A stretch of 64,000 bases of DNA, taken from an uncultured Candidatus Poseidoniales archaeon. GTDB lineage: Archaea; Thermoplasmatota; Poseidoniia; Poseidoniales; Thalassarchaeaceae. A program made the position numbers and the translations under genes. This document shows, piece by piece, positions 30,291 to 38,042 of this stretch. Under the pieces are notes generated by a model that did not search any database, had not been told where the DNA came from, and was given only the letters and a program-made list of their open reading frames with translations. The stretch covers positions 18,586 through 82,585 of the forward strand of contig CACELO010000003.1 in assembly GCA_902560445.1 (NCBI GenBank), written 5' to 3'. The stretch's first letter is position 1; each line of letters begins with the position of its first letter.

Positions 30291-30299
30291 GGTGTTGTG

Positions 30300-31457
30300 A
30301 TGGGGCAGAATATAGTTGACATCGATGAGAAGTTACGAATAATCGGAACCGCTCATGTTAGCACTGCATCAGTGGCTCTAGTTCGAGAAGAAATAGAGGA
30401 ATGGAAACCTGATTTGGTTGCTGTTGAACTATGTGAGTCTAGATTGAGATCTTTGCAACAGCCAGATGATTTGGATAATGATGACCTTTTGAAAATAATT
30501 AATGAAGGAAAGTCTGCAATGATCTTACTACAATCCGCACTAGCGGCTCAACAGAGGCGTATGGGAATGGAAACCGGAGAAAAACCCGGTGCAGAATTAC
30601 TCGCGGCTATCGAGGTAGCTGATGAAAAAGGAGTAGAGCACGCACTTATCGACAGAGATGTCGTGATCACCTTACGAAGGGCTTGGAGAAAAATGGGCCT
30701 TAGAGAGAAATGGCGCGTATTGAATGCCTTGCTGTGGGAAGATGATGATGAAGAAATTGACCTCGATGAATTGCTTGAAGATTCTGATTTATTGACTACT
30801 CTAATGGAAGATGCCAGGGAGGCAGCGCCTCGTGCAGGAGAGGTTCTTATCGACGAGAGAGATGCCTACTTGGCCGGCCGAATACAACAGATAAGAGGTA
30901 AAGGAAAGGTCCTCGCTGTCGTAGGGGCCGGGCACATAAACGGAATAATCGAGCACCTTGAGAAACCGGCTCTTGAAACCACATCAAGGATAAGTGAATT
31001 GTCTTCTGAACCACCCAAACCGATTTGGCCAAAGGTGGTGACGTGGGCAATTCCAATATTCCTAATATCGGTTGTTGGTTACCTGTTTTGGAATGGAGAT
31101 ACTGAAGCATTGAAAGATACAATTTGGTATTGGACCGCTGCAAATGCAATACTTGCCGGGTTAGGAGTTGCATTAGCCAGAGGCCATCCTCTGTCGATAT
31201 TAGTTGGAGCATTGGCAAGCCCAATTACGAGTTTGAATCCTACTTTGGCTGCGGGCTGGTTTGCAGGATACACACAATTGAAAATAGCCGCTCCAACTGG
31301 TGGAGATGCGACCGATTTTCTAGCACTACAAGATTACAGCGTTTTCTATCGAAATCGTGTGGGAAAGGTGTTACTTGTTACCGCACTTGGAAACTTAGGC
31401 TCGGCCCTCGGTGCGTGGCTTGCCGGTGGTGCAATCGTGGGCATTATTATTGGGTGA
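30300..31457 (+). CDS. TraB/PrgY family membrane protein
   Basis: GTAHVS, VAVELCESRL, VGAGHINGI motifs and C-terminal TM helices. Confidence 0.85.
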   Translation: MGQNIVDIDEKLRIIGTAHVSTASVALVREEIEEWKPDLVAVELCESRLRSLQQPDDLDNDDLLKIINEGKSAMILLQSALAAQQRRMGMETGEKPGAELLAAIEVADEKGVEHALIDRDVVITLRRAWRKMGLREKWRVLNALLWEDDDEEIDLDELLEDSDLLTTLMEDAREAAPRAGEVLIDERDAYLAGRIQQIRGKGKVLAVVGAGHINGIIEHLEKPALETTSRISELSSEPPKPIWPKVVTWAIPIFLISVVGYLFWNGDTEALKDTIWYWTAANAILAGLGVALARGHPLSILVGALASPITSLNPTLAAGWFAGYTQLKIAAPTGGDATDFLALQDYSVFYRNRVGKVLLVTALGNLGSALGAWLAGGAIVGIIIG

Positions 31458-31503
31458 ACGGTAAACCAACGAAGTATTGGGCGTAGCCCAAAGAAGTGAT
31501 TAC

Positions 31504-32916
31504 GTGGTTAATTTCGGCTTCGTTATTGACAATCGTAAGTGCATTGGATGCCATGCTTGCACCGTCGCTTGTAAGTCTGAACACGATGTGCCAATAGGAG
31601 TTAACCGTACTCATGTGAAGTATATTGAGAAAGGGGTCTATCCGGATGTAACCCGAGAATTTAGCGTTCATCGGTGTAATCATTGTGAGGACTCACCGTG
31701 CACAACAATTTGCCCTACTACTGCCCTATTCACTCGTGAAGATGGGATTGTGGATTTTGATGATGATCGCTGTATAGGTTGTAAATCCTGTATGCAGGCT
31801 TGCCCCTATGATGCGTTATACATCGATCCAAACAAGGGCACAGCTGCTAAGTGCAATTATTGCGCGCATAAAATAGAAAATTCCTATGAACCATCCTGTG
31901 TGGTGGTTTGTCCAGTTGAAGCAATAATCTCGGGAGATTTAGATGATCCTAATTCATCAATTTCCAATTATGTTAGCGAACACGAGGTAACTGTTCGGAA
32001 ACCAGAATCTGGAGCTAAACCCAACGTATTCTATGTCGAAACCAGTGAGGATATTCTTGACCCTCATGCCACTGAACGCTCCGGCGAATATCTTTGGACA
32101 GATCAAGCAGCAGGAGTTGGTCATTTCGCAAAGTATGCCGACTCTAGATTGGGTGCCTCAGATACCAATTCAATGATTGTTCAACTGGCACTTGAGAAGA
32201 AGGCTCGAGCCGCAAATCCACGAGACCGAGCGATTATTCGAGATGTGATGGAACGCCTTGATGAACAGGCTCAGCAACCGAAAAGAAGCTACGACCAACC
32301 TTCTAAAGGTGTACTTTGGGGATGGGAGGTTTCTGCCTATATCGTTACTAAGGCAATTGCTTCAGGGGCATATTTGGTTGCTATGTTAGCAATGTTTGCC
32401 GGTGTTATCGAAATGACTGACGAACTGTGGTGGCAATTGACAATTGGGTGTACGATTTTCTTAGGAATAACCGGTTTCCTATTGGTTAAGGACCTTGATA
32501 GACCAGAGAGATTCCTATACGTATTACTTAGGCCGAATTGGGATTCTTGGCTAGTAAAAGGGGCCTATATCTTGAGCGCTTTTGGAGTAGTATTGGCTTG
32601 TAGCGGAGCGGTCCTTTTCTTTGATCTAGACAGAACTTATCTCAATTATCTAGCAATTGCTGGTACGCCTCTAGCGACATTAACAGGAATCTATACAGCT
32701 TGGCTATTTGGTCAAGCAAGCGGTAGGAATTGGTCCAAAGACCGGTACCTTACACTGAAGATGCTTGTAGAGATGATCTTACTTGGCATCGCATCGATGG
32801 TATTTTTGACCTCTTCAGAGCTAATTTACTGGGCTACTGCCGGTGTGATGATTTTACTAGTTTGTAGGCACGCTCATAATACTGTAATTCAACCCCAACT
32901 GGAGACCTTACACTGA
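31504..32916 (+). CDS. Fused 4Fe-4S ferredoxin (PsrB/SoeB-like) and NrfD-type membrane subunit (PsrC/SoeC-like)
   Basis: Cys clusters CIGCHACTVAC, CNHCEDSPCTTICP, CIGCKSCMQACP, CNYCAHKIENSYEPSCVVVCP followed by NrfD TM domain with DRPERFLYVLLRPNWDSWLVKGAY; GTG at 31504 or TTG at 31477. Confidence 0.85.
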   Translation: MVNFGFVIDNRKCIGCHACTVACKSEHDVPIGVNRTHVKYIEKGVYPDVTREFSVHRCNHCEDSPCTTICPTTALFTREDGIVDFDDDRCIGCKSCMQACPYDALYIDPNKGTAAKCNYCAHKIENSYEPSCVVVCPVEAIISGDLDDPNSSISNYVSEHEVTVRKPESGAKPNVFYVETSEDILDPHATERSGEYLWTDQAAGVGHFAKYADSRLGASDTNSMIVQLALEKKARAANPRDRAIIRDVMERLDEQAQQPKRSYDQPSKGVLWGWEVSAYIVTKAIASGAYLVAMLAMFAGVIEMTDELWWQLTIGCTIFLGITGFLLVKDLDRPERFLYVLLRPNWDSWLVKGAYILSAFGVVLACSGAVLFFDLDRTYLNYLAIAGTPLATLTGIYTAWLFGQASGRNWSKDRYLTLKMLVEMILLGIASMVFLTSSELIYWATAGVMILLVCRHAHNTVIQPQLETLH

Positions 32917-32917
32917 G

Positions 32918-35659
32918 GTGAATGAAATGGCAGAGTCATTTATCGAGAAGTTCGCTCAGAAATTACGAATGATTCCAAATCTAGATAGAGATTACGCTGA
33001 TGGAAATACCCAAGAATTACGAAAATTTCCCTCGCCGGATGAATGGCTTGATTTCAAGGAACTGGATGCAAATGCATGGCCGGTCAGAATAGAGAAGAAT
33101 TATTCTCTAGTTCCAACAACCTGTTTCAACTGTGAATCAGCCTGTGGAATGTTGGCTTATGTCGACAAGGATACAGGTCAAGTAACTAAGTTTGAAGGTA
33201 ATCCACACCATCCTGGAAGTCGAGGTAGGAATTGTGCCAAAGGGCCTGCAACAATTAATCAAATTCAAGATACTGAGCGGATACTTCACCCTCTTCGTAG
33301 AGTTGGCGCTAGAGGTGAAGGGGGGTGGGAACAAATCACCTGGGAAGAGGCCCTAGAAGAAATTGCAGAAAAAATCCGCACCTCTCTAAAAGCAGGGGGC
33401 GTTGACAAGGTCGTCTATCACGTGGGAAGACCGGGGCACGAAGGTTATGCTAATCGAGTTCTGAAAGCTTGGGGTGTTGATGGGCATAATTCACACACTA
33501 ACATTTGTTCAGCAGGAGCGCGAACGGGCTATGCTCTCTGGCATCAACACGACAGGCCGAGTCCTGATCATACAAACGCCAAAGTGATTTTACTGACTTC
33601 TTCTCATCTTGAAACTGGACATTACTTCAACCCTCACGCACAAAGAATTCTCGAGGGGATGATGGATGGAGCGAAACTGATTGTAATCGACCCTCGACTA
33701 TCGAATACAGCGGCTATGGCTGACCATTGGTTACCGACATGGCCGGGTAGCGAACCAGCTCTTTTCCTTGCCTGGGCTAAAATGATACTCGAGCGAGAAT
33801 TGTATGACCGGGAGTTTATGGAAACCCAGGTCAATTGGGAAATGTGGATGTCTGCGGTACACCCTAATGAGCCAAATGAGTTTGATCGATTTGTTGAATT
33901 ATTGCTGAAAGAGTATCAAGAATATACCCCCGAATTTGCAGCAGCTGAATGTAAGATCCCAGTTGAGCAAGTAATCGAAGCAGGAGATGTTGTAGCCAAT
34001 GCTGGAAGTCAACTATGCACACATGTCTGGCGAAGTGCAGCGATTGGAAACCTTGGCGGCTGGCAGGTCAGCCGAACCTTGCATTTCCTCAATGTACTCA
34101 CTGGTTCAGTTGGAACTGTAGGTGGAACAAGCCCAAACTCTTGGTCGAAATTCAAGCCATCGCTATTCGATATCCCTCCAGACCCCGATGGTTGGAACGA
34201 ACTACATTTCCCGTCAGAATACACCCTAGCTCACTACGAAATGAGTCACATACTGCCTCATCTCGTAAAGGATGGTCGAGGAACGATGGATGTTTATTTC
34301 ACGCGTGTATTCAATCCAGTTTGGACATATCCTGATGGCTTTTCATGGATTGAAATGCTAGAAGATAAAAATGCCATTGGTTGCCACATTGCCTTAACTC
34401 CAACTTGGAATGAAACCGCCTTCTTTGCCGACTATGTTCTACCAATGGGGCATGCCTCGGAACGACATGATGTCAACTCATACGCAACCTCTGCAGGAAA
34501 ATGGGTAGCATTTAGGCAACCGGTACTCAGGGAATACGCTAGACGCGAAGGGAAAGAGGTAGAATTTACCCACGAAATTAACCCCGGAGAAGTTTGGGAA
34601 GAAGATGAGTTTTGGATTGAATTATCTTGGCGCATTGATGATGGAACAATGGGCATTCGTGAGCATTTTATGAGCCCATATCGAGAGGGTGAAAAAATCA
34701 CTGTTGACGAATACTATCAGTACCTATTCGAACGCGTGCCAGGGCTTCCAGAAGCAGCTGAGTCTGAAGGTACCGACTCACTCGGTTACATGCGCAAGCA
34801 TGGTGCTTTCTTAATCGAAGAGGCCACCTATGAAAAACACAAGTCGGAGGGCTGGCCAACTCCAAGTGGAAAACAGGAATTTTACTCAGAGACGATGATT
34901 GAATTTGGTTATCCTGAACATTCTATACCTCATTATCGTCAGAAGTCTCACGTTCATCCTGATAATTTATCTGCTGAAGATGAATATTGTCTTCTTCCGA
35001 ATTTCAGATTACCACAGCATATACACTCACGCTCAGCCAACGCAAAGTGGTTAGTTGAAATCGCTCATAGAAACCCAATCTGGATTCACCCCAAGGATGC
35101 GAGGAAACTCGGCGTAGCTGAAGGTGACTTACTAAAGATAGAAACCGAAATTGGTTGGTTTGTAGATAAGGTCTGGGTTACAGAGGGTATCAAACCTGGA
35201 GTTGTAGGGTGCTCCCATCACATTGGTAGGTGGAGAAGAGAACAAGACCGAGGTAATCGATTCCTAACAAATACCGTTGCAATCGAAGAGCGAGGTGATG
35301 GGAAAATGCGTATGAAGACAATTAGCGGAGTCGAGCCATGGAAGTCTGATGACCCCGATACCAATCGTATTTGGTGGCGAGACGGAGGGGTTCACCAAAA
35401 TATCACACATGCAGTTCAACCAGATCCAATTTCCGGAGCGCATTGCTGGCTTCAGAAGGTACGTCTATCCATTCCCAGTGAGGGTGAGGAATATGGAGAT
35501 ATAGAAGTCGACCGGAACAAGTCGTTTGAGTACTATAAACGCTGGAATGAATGGGCGAAAGAGCGTGAAACTCATCCGAGAGGAGAGCGCCGGCCACTAT
35601 GGATGAAGCGGCCTCTTTCTCCAAAGAAACAGCATTGGTATATGCCGGAGAGTGATTAA
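32918..35659 (+). CDS. Molybdopterin-dependent oxidoreductase catalytic subunit (DMSO-reductase superfamily; SoeA/PsrA-like)
   Basis: N-terminal CFNCESACGM...GRNCAKG FeS-site motif, MopB domains, C-terminal molydopterin-binding domain; no RR-type Tat signal. Confidence 0.88.
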   Translation: MNEMAESFIEKFAQKLRMIPNLDRDYADGNTQELRKFPSPDEWLDFKELDANAWPVRIEKNYSLVPTTCFNCESACGMLAYVDKDTGQVTKFEGNPHHPGSRGRNCAKGPATINQIQDTERILHPLRRVGARGEGGWEQITWEEALEEIAEKIRTSLKAGGVDKVVYHVGRPGHEGYANRVLKAWGVDGHNSHTNICSAGARTGYALWHQHDRPSPDHTNAKVILLTSSHLETGHYFNPHAQRILEGMMDGAKLIVIDPRLSNTAAMADHWLPTWPGSEPALFLAWAKMILERELYDREFMETQVNWEMWMSAVHPNEPNEFDRFVELLLKEYQEYTPEFAAAECKIPVEQVIEAGDVVANAGSQLCTHVWRSAAIGNLGGWQVSRTLHFLNVLTGSVGTVGGTSPNSWSKFKPSLFDIPPDPDGWNELHFPSEYTLAHYEMSHILPHLVKDGRGTMDVYFTRVFNPVWTYPDGFSWIEMLEDKNAIGCHIALTPTWNETAFFADYVLPMGHASERHDVNSYATSAGKWVAFRQPVLREYARREGKEVEFTHEINPGEVWEEDEFWIELSWRIDDGTMGIREHFMSPYREGEKITVDEYYQYLFERVPGLPEAAESEGTDSLGYMRKHGAFLIEEATYEKHKSEGWPTPSGKQEFYSETMIEFGYPEHSIPHYRQKSHVHPDNLSAEDEYCLLPNFRLPQHIHSRSANAKWLVEIAHRNPIWIHPKDARKLGVAEGDLLKIETEIGWFVDKVWVTEGIKPGVVGCSHHIGRWRREQDRGNRFLTNTVAIEERGDGKMRMKTISGVEPWKSDDPDTNRIWWRDGGVHQNITHAVQPDPISGAHCWLQKVRLSIPSEGEEYGDIEVDRNKSFEYYKRWNEWAKERETHPRGERRPLWMKRPLSPKKQHWYMPESD

Positions 35660-36460
35660 TTGGAGGAAATTATCGCTCTAGTAATAATTCTAGTTACCGC
35701 GTTTATGTTCGCCCCACTTGGTCTAGGAGGGGGATTTCTATTTGTTCCAACTCTTTACTTCATTTTAGGTTGGGACCTACAACTATCTATCGTTTGTTCA
35801 TTGATTCTGGTTTGGTTTGTCAGTATAGGCTCCCGAAGAGCCCACGATGAAGGGGGTTACACGGTTGCAGGAGTTGGACGGAAAGGTAGGATTGTAGCGA
35901 TATTTGGCGCAATTTTCGGTGCTTTAGCCGCTGATCAAATAATTGCCGAAGCGGGTGAAAGTATTATCAAAATTCTAGCAATTATTCTACTGATTTTAGT
36001 GATATATCGTGGTATAAAGAAATTAATCGAAGAGCAACATAATGACATTCATGATGAGGATATCTCTATTCAAGGTGCATTGCTCTACAAATACAAGTTA
36101 GGGTGCCTAGCAGGAGGTTTATCCGCAGGATTAATCGGTATTGGGGGAGGAGTTATTTTTACCATGTTAAACAGAATAGTTCTAGGATTGGGACCTCATA
36201 AAGCCGCAGGAACTTCTTACTTGATTGTAATGAGAGTAGTCCCTGTCGCTATAGTATCTCATTTACTTTTTAACCCGTCATTAATTGATGAAATCACCAA
36301 ATTTGATACACTTACTCTTGCTTTACCTCTGATTGTTCTTGTAACCGCATGGGCGGGCGCCAAAACCGCTATTCGCATGCTACCTCAAGATGTTTTGACA
36401 TATCCTTACTTAATTGCCGTGGGTATATCTCTACTGAGATATTTGATGGATCTAATATAG
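35660..36460 (+). CDS. TauE/SafE family membrane transporter (sulfite exporter family)
   Basis: Duplicated TM repeats LGLGGGFLFVP and LIGIGGGVIFTM. Confidence 0.85.
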   Translation: MEEIIALVIILVTAFMFAPLGLGGGFLFVPTLYFILGWDLQLSIVCSLILVWFVSIGSRRAHDEGGYTVAGVGRKGRIVAIFGAIFGALAADQIIAEAGESIIKILAIILLILVIYRGIKKLIEEQHNDIHDEDISIQGALLYKYKLGCLAGGLSAGLIGIGGGVIFTMLNRIVLGLGPHKAAGTSYLIVMRVVPVAIVSHLLFNPSLIDEITKFDTLTLALPLIVLVTAWAGAKTAIRMLPQDVLTYPYLIAVGISLLRYLMDLI

Positions 36461-36470
36461 TGAGGAGAAT

Positions 36471-36728
36471 TTAATCCGTATCTGAGGTCTCTTCAGCAAT
36501 ATCTTCCAAACCCCAGTCTGACCAACTCCATGCTCTTTCATGGAAATAATACAGTATCATCTTTGTGAATAATTCAGTTCCACCAATAGCGGCTCCTGCC
36601 TTGATATCTCCTGTCACAATGTAAGCTATCAGAATTGTATCAAGAGTACCTATTGTTCTCCAAGTGACAGTCTTAACCAAACTACGAGCTTTATTCGCGT
36701 GTCCTGTACCCGGGATATGTTCTGCCAT
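36471..36728 (-). CDS. DUF2061 small membrane protein
   Basis: ARSLVKTVTWRTIGTLDTILIAYIVTGDIKAGAAIGGTELFTKMILYYFHERAW is characteristic of DUF2061. Confidence 0.85.
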   Translation of the reverse strand: MAEHIPGTGHANKARSLVKTVTWRTIGTLDTILIAYIVTGDIKAGAAIGGTELFTKMILYYFHERAWSWSDWGLEDIAEETSDTD

Positions 36729-36785: not shown

Positions 36786-38042
36786 TCACACAGATTCGAG
36801 AATTATTGCTATTCCCTGTCCGCCACCAATACATGCTGTCGCGATTCCAAACTTCTTGCCCTCTCGCTTGAGTGTATGTGCTAGAGTTAGTGTGAGACGA
36901 CTTCCTGTTGCTGCAAGAGGGTGCCCTAAACCGACTGCACCACCGTTAATATTGACTATCTCATGTGAAATTCCCAATTCCTTCATACAAGCCACTGCTT
37001 GACCGGCGAAGGCTTCGTTGATTTCCCATAGGTCAATCTCATCCACACTCATACCTGCCCTTTCAAGGGCTAGTTTGCTGGCTGGTACCGGGCCATATGC
37101 CATAATTGCAGGTTCAAGGCCAACAACCCCCCAGTTGACTATTCTTGCTATGGGTTTGTCTCCGTCAGAGGCGGCCTGAGATGCGGATTTCAGCACTACA
37201 GCTGCTGCACCATCAACTACACCAGAGGCATTTCCAGCGGTTACCAAGGAAGTAGGGCCGAAATGCGTCCTAAGTGCACCAAGGGACTCATCACTAGTAC
37301 CTCTAACAAAGTGGTCTTCTTCGGTTGCAGTGACTAAACCATCGGCCGTCTCAACATCAACAATTTCTTCAGCCCAAATCCCATTATCAACACTATTTTC
37401 AGTTCTTGAATGACTAATTACTGCAAAAGAATCTGCTTCTTTTCTCGTGACGCCCACTCTACGACAGATTTCATCACTAGTTTGGGCCATGAAGGAATCA
37501 CAAGTGGTATCTAGCAAATTGGTGAAGAGATAATCTTCCATATCCTTGGGAAGTTCATCACCTTCTCTTGGTGGTCTTCCTAGTTTGTAGGTGGAGCGCA
37601 TTCCTCTAAGTACGTGTGGTGCCTGGCTGAGATTTTCCATTCCCCCTGCAACCACAGTATTGGCTTCACCAAGCATAATCATTTGAGATGCTGAAATTAT
37701 TGATTGAATTCCTGAACCACATAATCGGTTTAGTGTAAGCATTGGAACCTCTTGGGGGATACCTGCATTAAGTCCTGCATGACGAGCGCCAAAAATCGCC
37801 TGATCGCTTGTCTGTAATGCGTGACCGATTACTAGGTGGTCAACTGACTCTGGGCTTGTACCAGTCTTCTCAAGAGCCCCTCGAATAGCGATAGAGCCTA
37901 ATTGCTCGGCACTTACTTCGGCTAATCTTCCACCGACTTCACCGTCTCCACGCTTTCCACCAAGCCATTCACAGAACGGGGTTCTAGCTCCTCCGATTAG
38001 TACAACGTCTTCGCTCATTGACATTACCGAGATAATTACCAT
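36786..38042 (-). CDS. Acetyl-CoA acetyltransferase / thiolase (bacterial-like)
   Basis: LNRLCGSGIQSI, NEAFAGQAVA, NINGGAVGLGHPLAATGSR, ATACIGGGQGIA; start likely an internal Met near 38018-38024. Confidence 0.93.
   Translation of the reverse strand: MVIISVMSMSEDVVLIGGARTPFCEWLGGKRGDGEVGGRLAEVSAEQLGSIAIRGALEKTGTSPESVDHLVIGHALQTSDQAIFGARHAGLNAGIPQEVPMLTLNRLCGSGIQSIISASQMIMLGEANTVVAGGMENLSQAPHVLRGMRSTYKLGRPPREGDELPKDMEDYLFTNLLDTTCDSFMAQTSDEICRRVGVTRKEADSFAVISHSRTENSVDNGIWAEEIVDVETADGLVTATEEDHFVRGTSDESLGALRTHFGPTSLVTAGNASGVVDGAAAVVLKSASQAASDGDKPIARIVNWGVVGLEPAIMAYGPVPASKLALERAGMSVDEIDLWEINEAFAGQAVACMKELGISHEIVNINGGAVGLGHPLAATGSRLTLTLAHTLKREGKKFGIATACIGGGQGIAIILESV

Follow-up and report, generated by a model that had tools for sequence, protein, structure and literature searches.

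A fused ferredoxin–NrfD protein and its molybdopterin partner in Poseidoniales as a candidate sulfite:quinone oxidoreductase

The window, which is the whole 64-kb stretch of DNA analysed here, belonged to a metagenome-assembled genome (MAG) of the Thalassarchaeaceae (MGIIb) of 1.10 Mb and 74% completeness, with Ca. Thalassarchaeum among the nearest named relatives. An ORF check of the window located three consecutive genes on the same strand and a convergent fourth gene. The first gene (31504–32916, + strand; ORF from 31477) encoded a fusion protein, BC, with the Pfam domains Fer4_11 and NrfD. The second gene (32918–35659, + strand) encoded a catalytic Mo-bis-PGD-type subunit of 913 residues, A, with the domains Molybdop_Fe4S4, Molybdopterin, and Molydop_binding. 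The third gene (35660–36460, + strand) encoded a TauE/SafE family transporter (Pfam TauE), a probable exporter of sulfite (or sulfate), and the convergent gene (36471–36728, − strand) encoded a small DUF2061 membrane protein. All of these Pfam calls were above the gathering cut-off. The gap between BC and A was 1 nt and that between A and TauE was 0 nt. The four ORFs, the fusion, the spacing, and the convergent DUF2061 gene were thus all found where the sequence-only reading had placed them, with the expected domains. The genes were flanked on the left by TraB/PrgY (30297–31457, + strand) and on the right by a thiolase gene (36786–38042, − strand), and a neighbourhood comparison identified these as the two sides of an insertion site.

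The ORF of BC (31477–32916) encoded 479 residues, while a GTG codon at 31504 gave a better conserved protein of 470 residues. The GTG start (MVNFGFVIDNRKC...), which is common to the relatives, is more likely to be the true one. The fusion and the gene order were seen again in dozens of loci, and therefore the BC-A arrangement is not a product of chance.

The N-terminal part of BC (approximately residues 1–190) was a ferredoxin domain with four [4Fe-4S] motifs, as in the ferredoxin subunit of SoeABC, and its 16 ferredoxin cysteines lay within residues 13–136. The C-terminal part (approximately residues 272–465) was an NrfD-type quinone-reactive anchor with six predicted transmembrane (TM) helices, in agreement with the earlier description of a four-cluster ferredoxin fused to NrfD. 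The sequence DLDRPxRFLYVLLRPNWxSWLVKGAY was a conserved motif of BC. Columns 515–596 of the BC alignment held 3–6 residues in all ten Poseidoniales sequences aligned, whereas each of the fifteen homologs from bacteria and haloarchaea had 67–81 residues there; the anchor was short by about 70 residues in each of the ten. The structure prediction of the fusion that had been called for at the outset, an AF2 model, placed six helices in the anchor, most of them with confidence (residues 274–299, 306–331, 349–372, 378–404, 416–436, and 440–465). The AF2 models were of moderate quality, with a mean pLDDT of 64 for A and values mostly below 50 for the poorly modelled ferredoxin half of BC. With six predicted helices, Poseidoniales BC fell below the at least eight TM helices expected of the NrfD-like subunit of SoeABC. 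A simple and crude hydropathy scan of the fifteen longer homologs gave 6–8 peaks, with eight in six of them. In these six homologs the positive charge was mostly on the N-terminal-side loops, a positive-inside pattern that places the B domain, as a prediction, in the cytoplasm. In the haloarchaeal BC proteins, a long linker with Cys/Gly-rich repeats joined the ferredoxin domain to the NrfD domain (L115:6203-7975, L117:6179-7999, and L119:6221-7990).

Subunit A was a catalytic subunit of the CISM type. Residues Cys69, Cys72, Cys76, and Cys106 formed its N-terminal FeS motif, and Cys197 was invariant across 27 homologs. In the alignment, Cys197 matched the cysteine that occupies the Mo-ligand site in T. 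thermophilus PsrA, a residue that serves as the Mo ligand in that enzyme. Twin-arginine inspection of A and BC, in the window and its relatives, revealed no Tat signal; a single RRYFL at residue 42 of the Thermomicrobium protein was not followed by a hydrophobic stretch. The earlier claim of a catalytic subunit with an N-terminal FeS motif and no Tat signal therefore stands, and the combination of N-terminal [4Fe-4S] and molybdopterin domains in a Tat-less protein is that of SoeA. The absence of Tat and the positive-inside pattern agree in predicting an N-side orientation. The matches of A to the NCBIfam profiles (PhsA, DmsA, ArrA, TtrA, and Fdh) were all far below the cut-offs, with 194 bits for the best of them, PhsA (cut-off 694), and 184.5 bits for the DmsA model TIGR02166 (cut-off 777.7). 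The best PDB chain for A was T. thermophilus PsrA. Foldseek matched A to ArrA, PsrA, and acetylene hydratase, and BC to 2vpw_B, 6cz7_B, and 2vpw_C; the substrate therefore cannot be told from the fold by itself.

Homologs were 73–99% identical within Poseidoniales, 62–70% in Neomarinimicrobiota, 65% in a Holophagae MAG, and 60–63% in Saprospiraceae/Bacteroidia. On replicons, identities were 46–55% in haloarchaea, 53% in Thermomicrobium roseum, 52% in Rhodococcus jostii RHA1, and 37% in Sulfurovum mangrovi. The BC fusion went with subunit A in almost every locus of sufficient length, with the exception of Sulfurovum. In a maximum-likelihood tree, the Poseidoniales A proteins formed one clade nested with high support among Neomarinimicrobiota, Holophagae, and Saprospiraceae branches, and a long branch separated the A clade from DmsA, PsrA, PhsA, ArrA, TtrA, and others. 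Several reference placements in this tree were unsure long branches. A tblastn search of plasmid sequences found no clear SoeA. Because archaeal A is nested inside bacterial A, a transfer into archaea is indicated, and the simplest reading of the tree is that the operon may have come to Poseidoniales from marine bacteria related to Neomarinimicrobiota.

Outside Poseidoniales, BC and A were embedded among sulfur genes in several lineages. The gene order was ArsR, TusA, DsrE2, a rhodanese/MBL protein, BC, A, and a sulfate symporter in Neomarinimicrobiota, and MBL/rhodanese protein, BC, A, and SulP (above its cut-off) in Saprospiraceae, where locus L098 also contained DUF1641 and a type III SQR-like protein. 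In haloarchaea the order was rhodanese/MBL, TauE, BC, and A, with Mrp or MobA genes as well. In Rhodococcus it was DsrE, TusA, BC, A, and Mrp, with two MBL/rhodanese proteins nearby. Such partners were absent at the Thermomicrobium locus and at several Neomarinimicrobiota loci. The rhodanese/MBL protein resembled a persulfide dioxygenase (PDO), with 3tp9, 4ysb, BpPRF 5ve3, and ETHE1 4chl as its nearest structures. Inspection of the sequence by eye indicated that the three Fe ligands of ETHE1 were kept and that two histidines of the HxHxDH motif were missing, and the match to the NCBIfam Blh sulfur-dioxygenase model was weak (30 of 625 bits). An Mrp/NBP35 FeS-carrier ATPase gene lay directly after A in two haloarchaea and in Rhodococcus (L115:11155-12309, L117:11038-12198, and L118:10805-11974), and its product is perhaps a maturation factor.

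The phyletic survey covered 146 Poseidoniales genomes, which are incomplete MAGs, and its tests were uncorrected for relatedness, with genera such as g16 moving as blocks. BC was found in 44 of the 146 genomes and PDO in 15, and 14 of the 15 PDO genomes had BC (Fisher 1.1e-7, relatedness uncorrected). In all 14, PDO adjoined BC, within about 75 bp upstream and on the same strand. Locus L083, whose A was 94% identical to that of the window, had the gene order of the window plus a second TauE and the genes ArsR-TusA-DsrE2-PDO between TraB and BC, and TusA-DsrE2-PDO occupied the same position in L063, L047, L089, and L163. The PDO search gave no match in the window genome (G000), and TusA, DsrE2, and PDO were missing at 24 of the 29 Poseidoniales BC-A loci.

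The insertion site itself was recognized from relatives. In the module-free loci L155, L154, and L158 the order was TM222-DHPS-TraB-DUF2061-thiolase, with TraB directly before DUF2061. The DUF2061 gene lies beside the thiolase gene in these genomes without BC-A, so it belongs to the site as a resident flanking gene; its membership in the module, as proposed in the sequence-only reading, was not upheld. Within family f1, DUF2061 and BC showed a weak association (p = 0.08, relatedness uncorrected). Two copies of DUF2061 were present at 12 of the 14 Poseidoniales loci without TauE (e.g. L159 and L163). The adjacency of TauE, which was also part of the earlier proposal, was conserved in part: TauE was present at 15 of the 29 module loci and missing from the others. 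With the family found somewhere in 142 of the 146 genomes, TauE carries little weight alone and was ruled out as a specific marker of the module.

In locus L157, which matched the window in TraB (97% identity) and TauE (95%), a PF03601/YeiH protein beside TauE replaced BC-A, and YeiH filled the same slot in L159, L160, and L153, so that the slot was occupied by YeiH with or without TauE. The YeiH matches were above the Pfam cut-off and below that of TIGR00698. YeiH occurred in none of the 44 genomes with BC and in 23 of the 102 without it (p = 1.3e-4 overall and 4e-8 within family f1, relatedness uncorrected). YeiH is reported to be a sulfite exporter in Hyphomicrobium (PMC12423496), and the same function has been described for TauE (Weinitschke 2007, as cited in PMC12423496). 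Because they share the chromosomal slot and never co-occur, YeiH probably handles the same metabolite as BC-A, although YeiH is a transporter without redox chemistry. In the slot of genome G015, a 337-residue protein encoded directly after YeiH (L153:4386-5396) had no Pfam, NCBIfam, or PHROGs match.

Cysteine dioxygenase (CDO, PF05995) was present in 53 of the 146 genomes, and 48 of these 53 had BC or YeiH. A source of sulfite (CDO or PDO) was detected in 60 of the 67 genomes with a sink (BC or YeiH) versus 6 of the 79 others (relatedness uncorrected); among these incomplete MAGs, the exceptions were seven in which a sink but no source was detected and six in which a source but no sink was detected. 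The 44 BC genomes comprised 25 with CDO only, 12 with PDO only, 2 with both, and 5 with neither, and the two sources behaved as alternatives (p = 2e-5, relatedness uncorrected). In genus g4, G348 had CDO and BC, G020 and G220 had PDO and BC, and G289 lacked both a source and a sink. In family f2, G322 was both the sole CDO genome and the sole YeiH genome. By eye, the CDO of the window genome contained the Arg-type YxRN, HDH, His, and Tyr motifs, and its gene was convergent with that of a class I/II aminotransferase (L161:600-2593, contig C6), which we guess to act on cysteine sulfinate. The two enzymes could form a possible cysteine-to-sulfite route in the window MAG. Organosulfonates, the source suggested in the sequence-only reading, gave way to persulfide and cysteine, which fit better; CDO and PDO, the source enzymes searched, accounted for the distribution. 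Sulfite-oxidase-fold proteins of the SUOX/SorA type (PF00174) were found in 7 of the 146 genomes, mostly in genus g3 (e.g. G310:C155:12159-12608); they could represent either a further sulfite oxidase or an enzyme of unrelated function.

Taken with this context, BC-A is probably a sulfite:quinone oxidoreductase that faces the cytoplasm and operates in the manner of SoeABC. This core of the earlier proposal gained strong contextual support from PDO, TusA, DsrE2, and the sulfate and sulfite transporters in relatives, from the mutual exclusion with YeiH, and from the co-occurrence of BC or YeiH with CDO or PDO. Specificity for sulfite cannot be read from the sequence of BC-A, and we infer the substrate, direction, quinone coupling, membrane side, and source of sulfite. 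At the Mo site of A, cytoplasmic sulfite, which is toxic, would be converted to sulfate, and the electrons would pass from the FeS cluster of A through the four B-domain clusters to a quinone at the NrfD (C) domain. The adjacent TauE would probably export excess sulfite or sulfate. The sulfite would most likely arise from cysteine in the window genome, by CDO and transamination of cysteine sulfinate, and from sulfane sulfur in relatives with the fuller operon, by TusA/DsrE2 and then PDO. After the transfer, about two TM helices may have disappeared from the anchor, and the PDO part may have been lost in many lineages.

A polysulfide, sulfur, or thiosulfate reductase of the Psr/Phs type, in which quinol electrons would reduce sulfane sulfur, is suggested by PhsA as the top NCBIfam match, by PsrA as the top PDB chain, and by a Foldseek match in which the B domain and PsrB are 41% identical, and PMC8359478 cites Wright 2014 and Hawley 2017 for Marinimicrobia psrABC proposed to reduce S0. 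We consider such a reductase improbable. Subunit A neither scored above the family model nor carried the Tat signal found in the PhsA, DmsA, and NapA references; a long supported branch lay between A and PsrA/PhsA/ArrA/TtrA, the neighbours included the O2-using PDO-like protein and sulfate transporters, and the genes occurred in Rhodococcus, haloarchaea, and Thermomicrobium. PMC8359478 itself favours a sulfur-oxidizing lifestyle for one of its Marinimicrobia MAGs. A reductase of DMSO, or of a similar S- or N-oxide, for anaerobic respiration was an earlier guess for the MGII genes: PMC6741140, citing Martin-Cuadrado 2008, takes a molybdopterin oxidoreductase, ferredoxin, and TraB as a possible sign of DMSO respiration, and that locus looks like the BC-A locus described here. 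The score against TIGR02166, the lack of grouping with DmsA/YnfE in the tree, the absence of Tat, and the persulfide, sulfite, and sulfate genes nearby make this function highly unlikely. Both are earlier readings of apparently the same genes and fit the context less well. The linkage to TusA and DsrE2 in several lineages would also suit an enzyme acting on another sulfur species, such as carrier-bound sulfite or thiosulfonate from TusA/DsrE2, and not on free sulfite. That substrate seems quite doubtful, as the 24 loci without TusA/DsrE2/PDO usually had CDO in the genome instead, and the family that replaces the enzyme, YeiH, is one of exporters of free sulfite.

When compared with SoeABC of Allochromatium, Ruegeria, and Aquifex, BC-A shares the Mo/FeS subunit A, the four-cluster B, the NrfD-like C, the absence of Tat, and the proposed oxidation of cytoplasmic sulfite, and it is predicted to face the cytoplasm as well. 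It differs in that B and C are one protein and that the Poseidoniales anchor has six rather than eight predicted helices; SoeC has been listed from Proteobacteria, Clostridia, and Aquificae only (PMC8076601). PsrABC and PhsABC share the CISM fold and cofactors, and the 2vpw chains were among the nearest solved structures, whereas BC-A is Tat-less, is predicted on the opposite membrane side, has an oxidative sulfur context, and lies on a separate branch. The bigR operon consists of an ArsR repressor, the Blh sulfur transferase/dioxygenase, and TauE (PMC5823870). The archaeal L083 operon likewise has ArsR, the rhodanese/MBL protein, and TauE, a set absent beside the window copy, whereas the operons described here add TusA, DsrE2, and BC-A. 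The addition of BC-A means that sulfite could be oxidized and not just exported. A tentative extension, to which we give somewhat less than even weight, is that the enzymes with fused BC make up a family of sulfite dehydrogenases separate from SoeABC, which transfer has carried to both archaea and bacteria. The six-helix anchor of the Poseidoniales members would have kept the quinone-site half and lost part of the second helix bundle, as a non-pumping quinone reductase that clears the sulfite of cysteine or persulfide breakdown.

Because homologs occur in cultivable organisms (haloarchaea, Thermomicrobium, and Rhodococcus jostii RHA1), the proposal is testable now. The locus appears to be the one read earlier as a hint of DMSO respiration (PMC6741140), and the related Marinimicrobia genes were read as sulfur reduction (PMC8359478). 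In the surface ocean, few plankton groups are commoner than the Marine Group II archaea. If the present proposal is true, about 30% of the sampled Poseidoniales genomes could oxidize sulfite to sulfate with a gain of energy, with a further 16% having a sulfite-exporter-family gene instead, and the breakdown of cysteine and sulfane sulfur would be tied to respiration.
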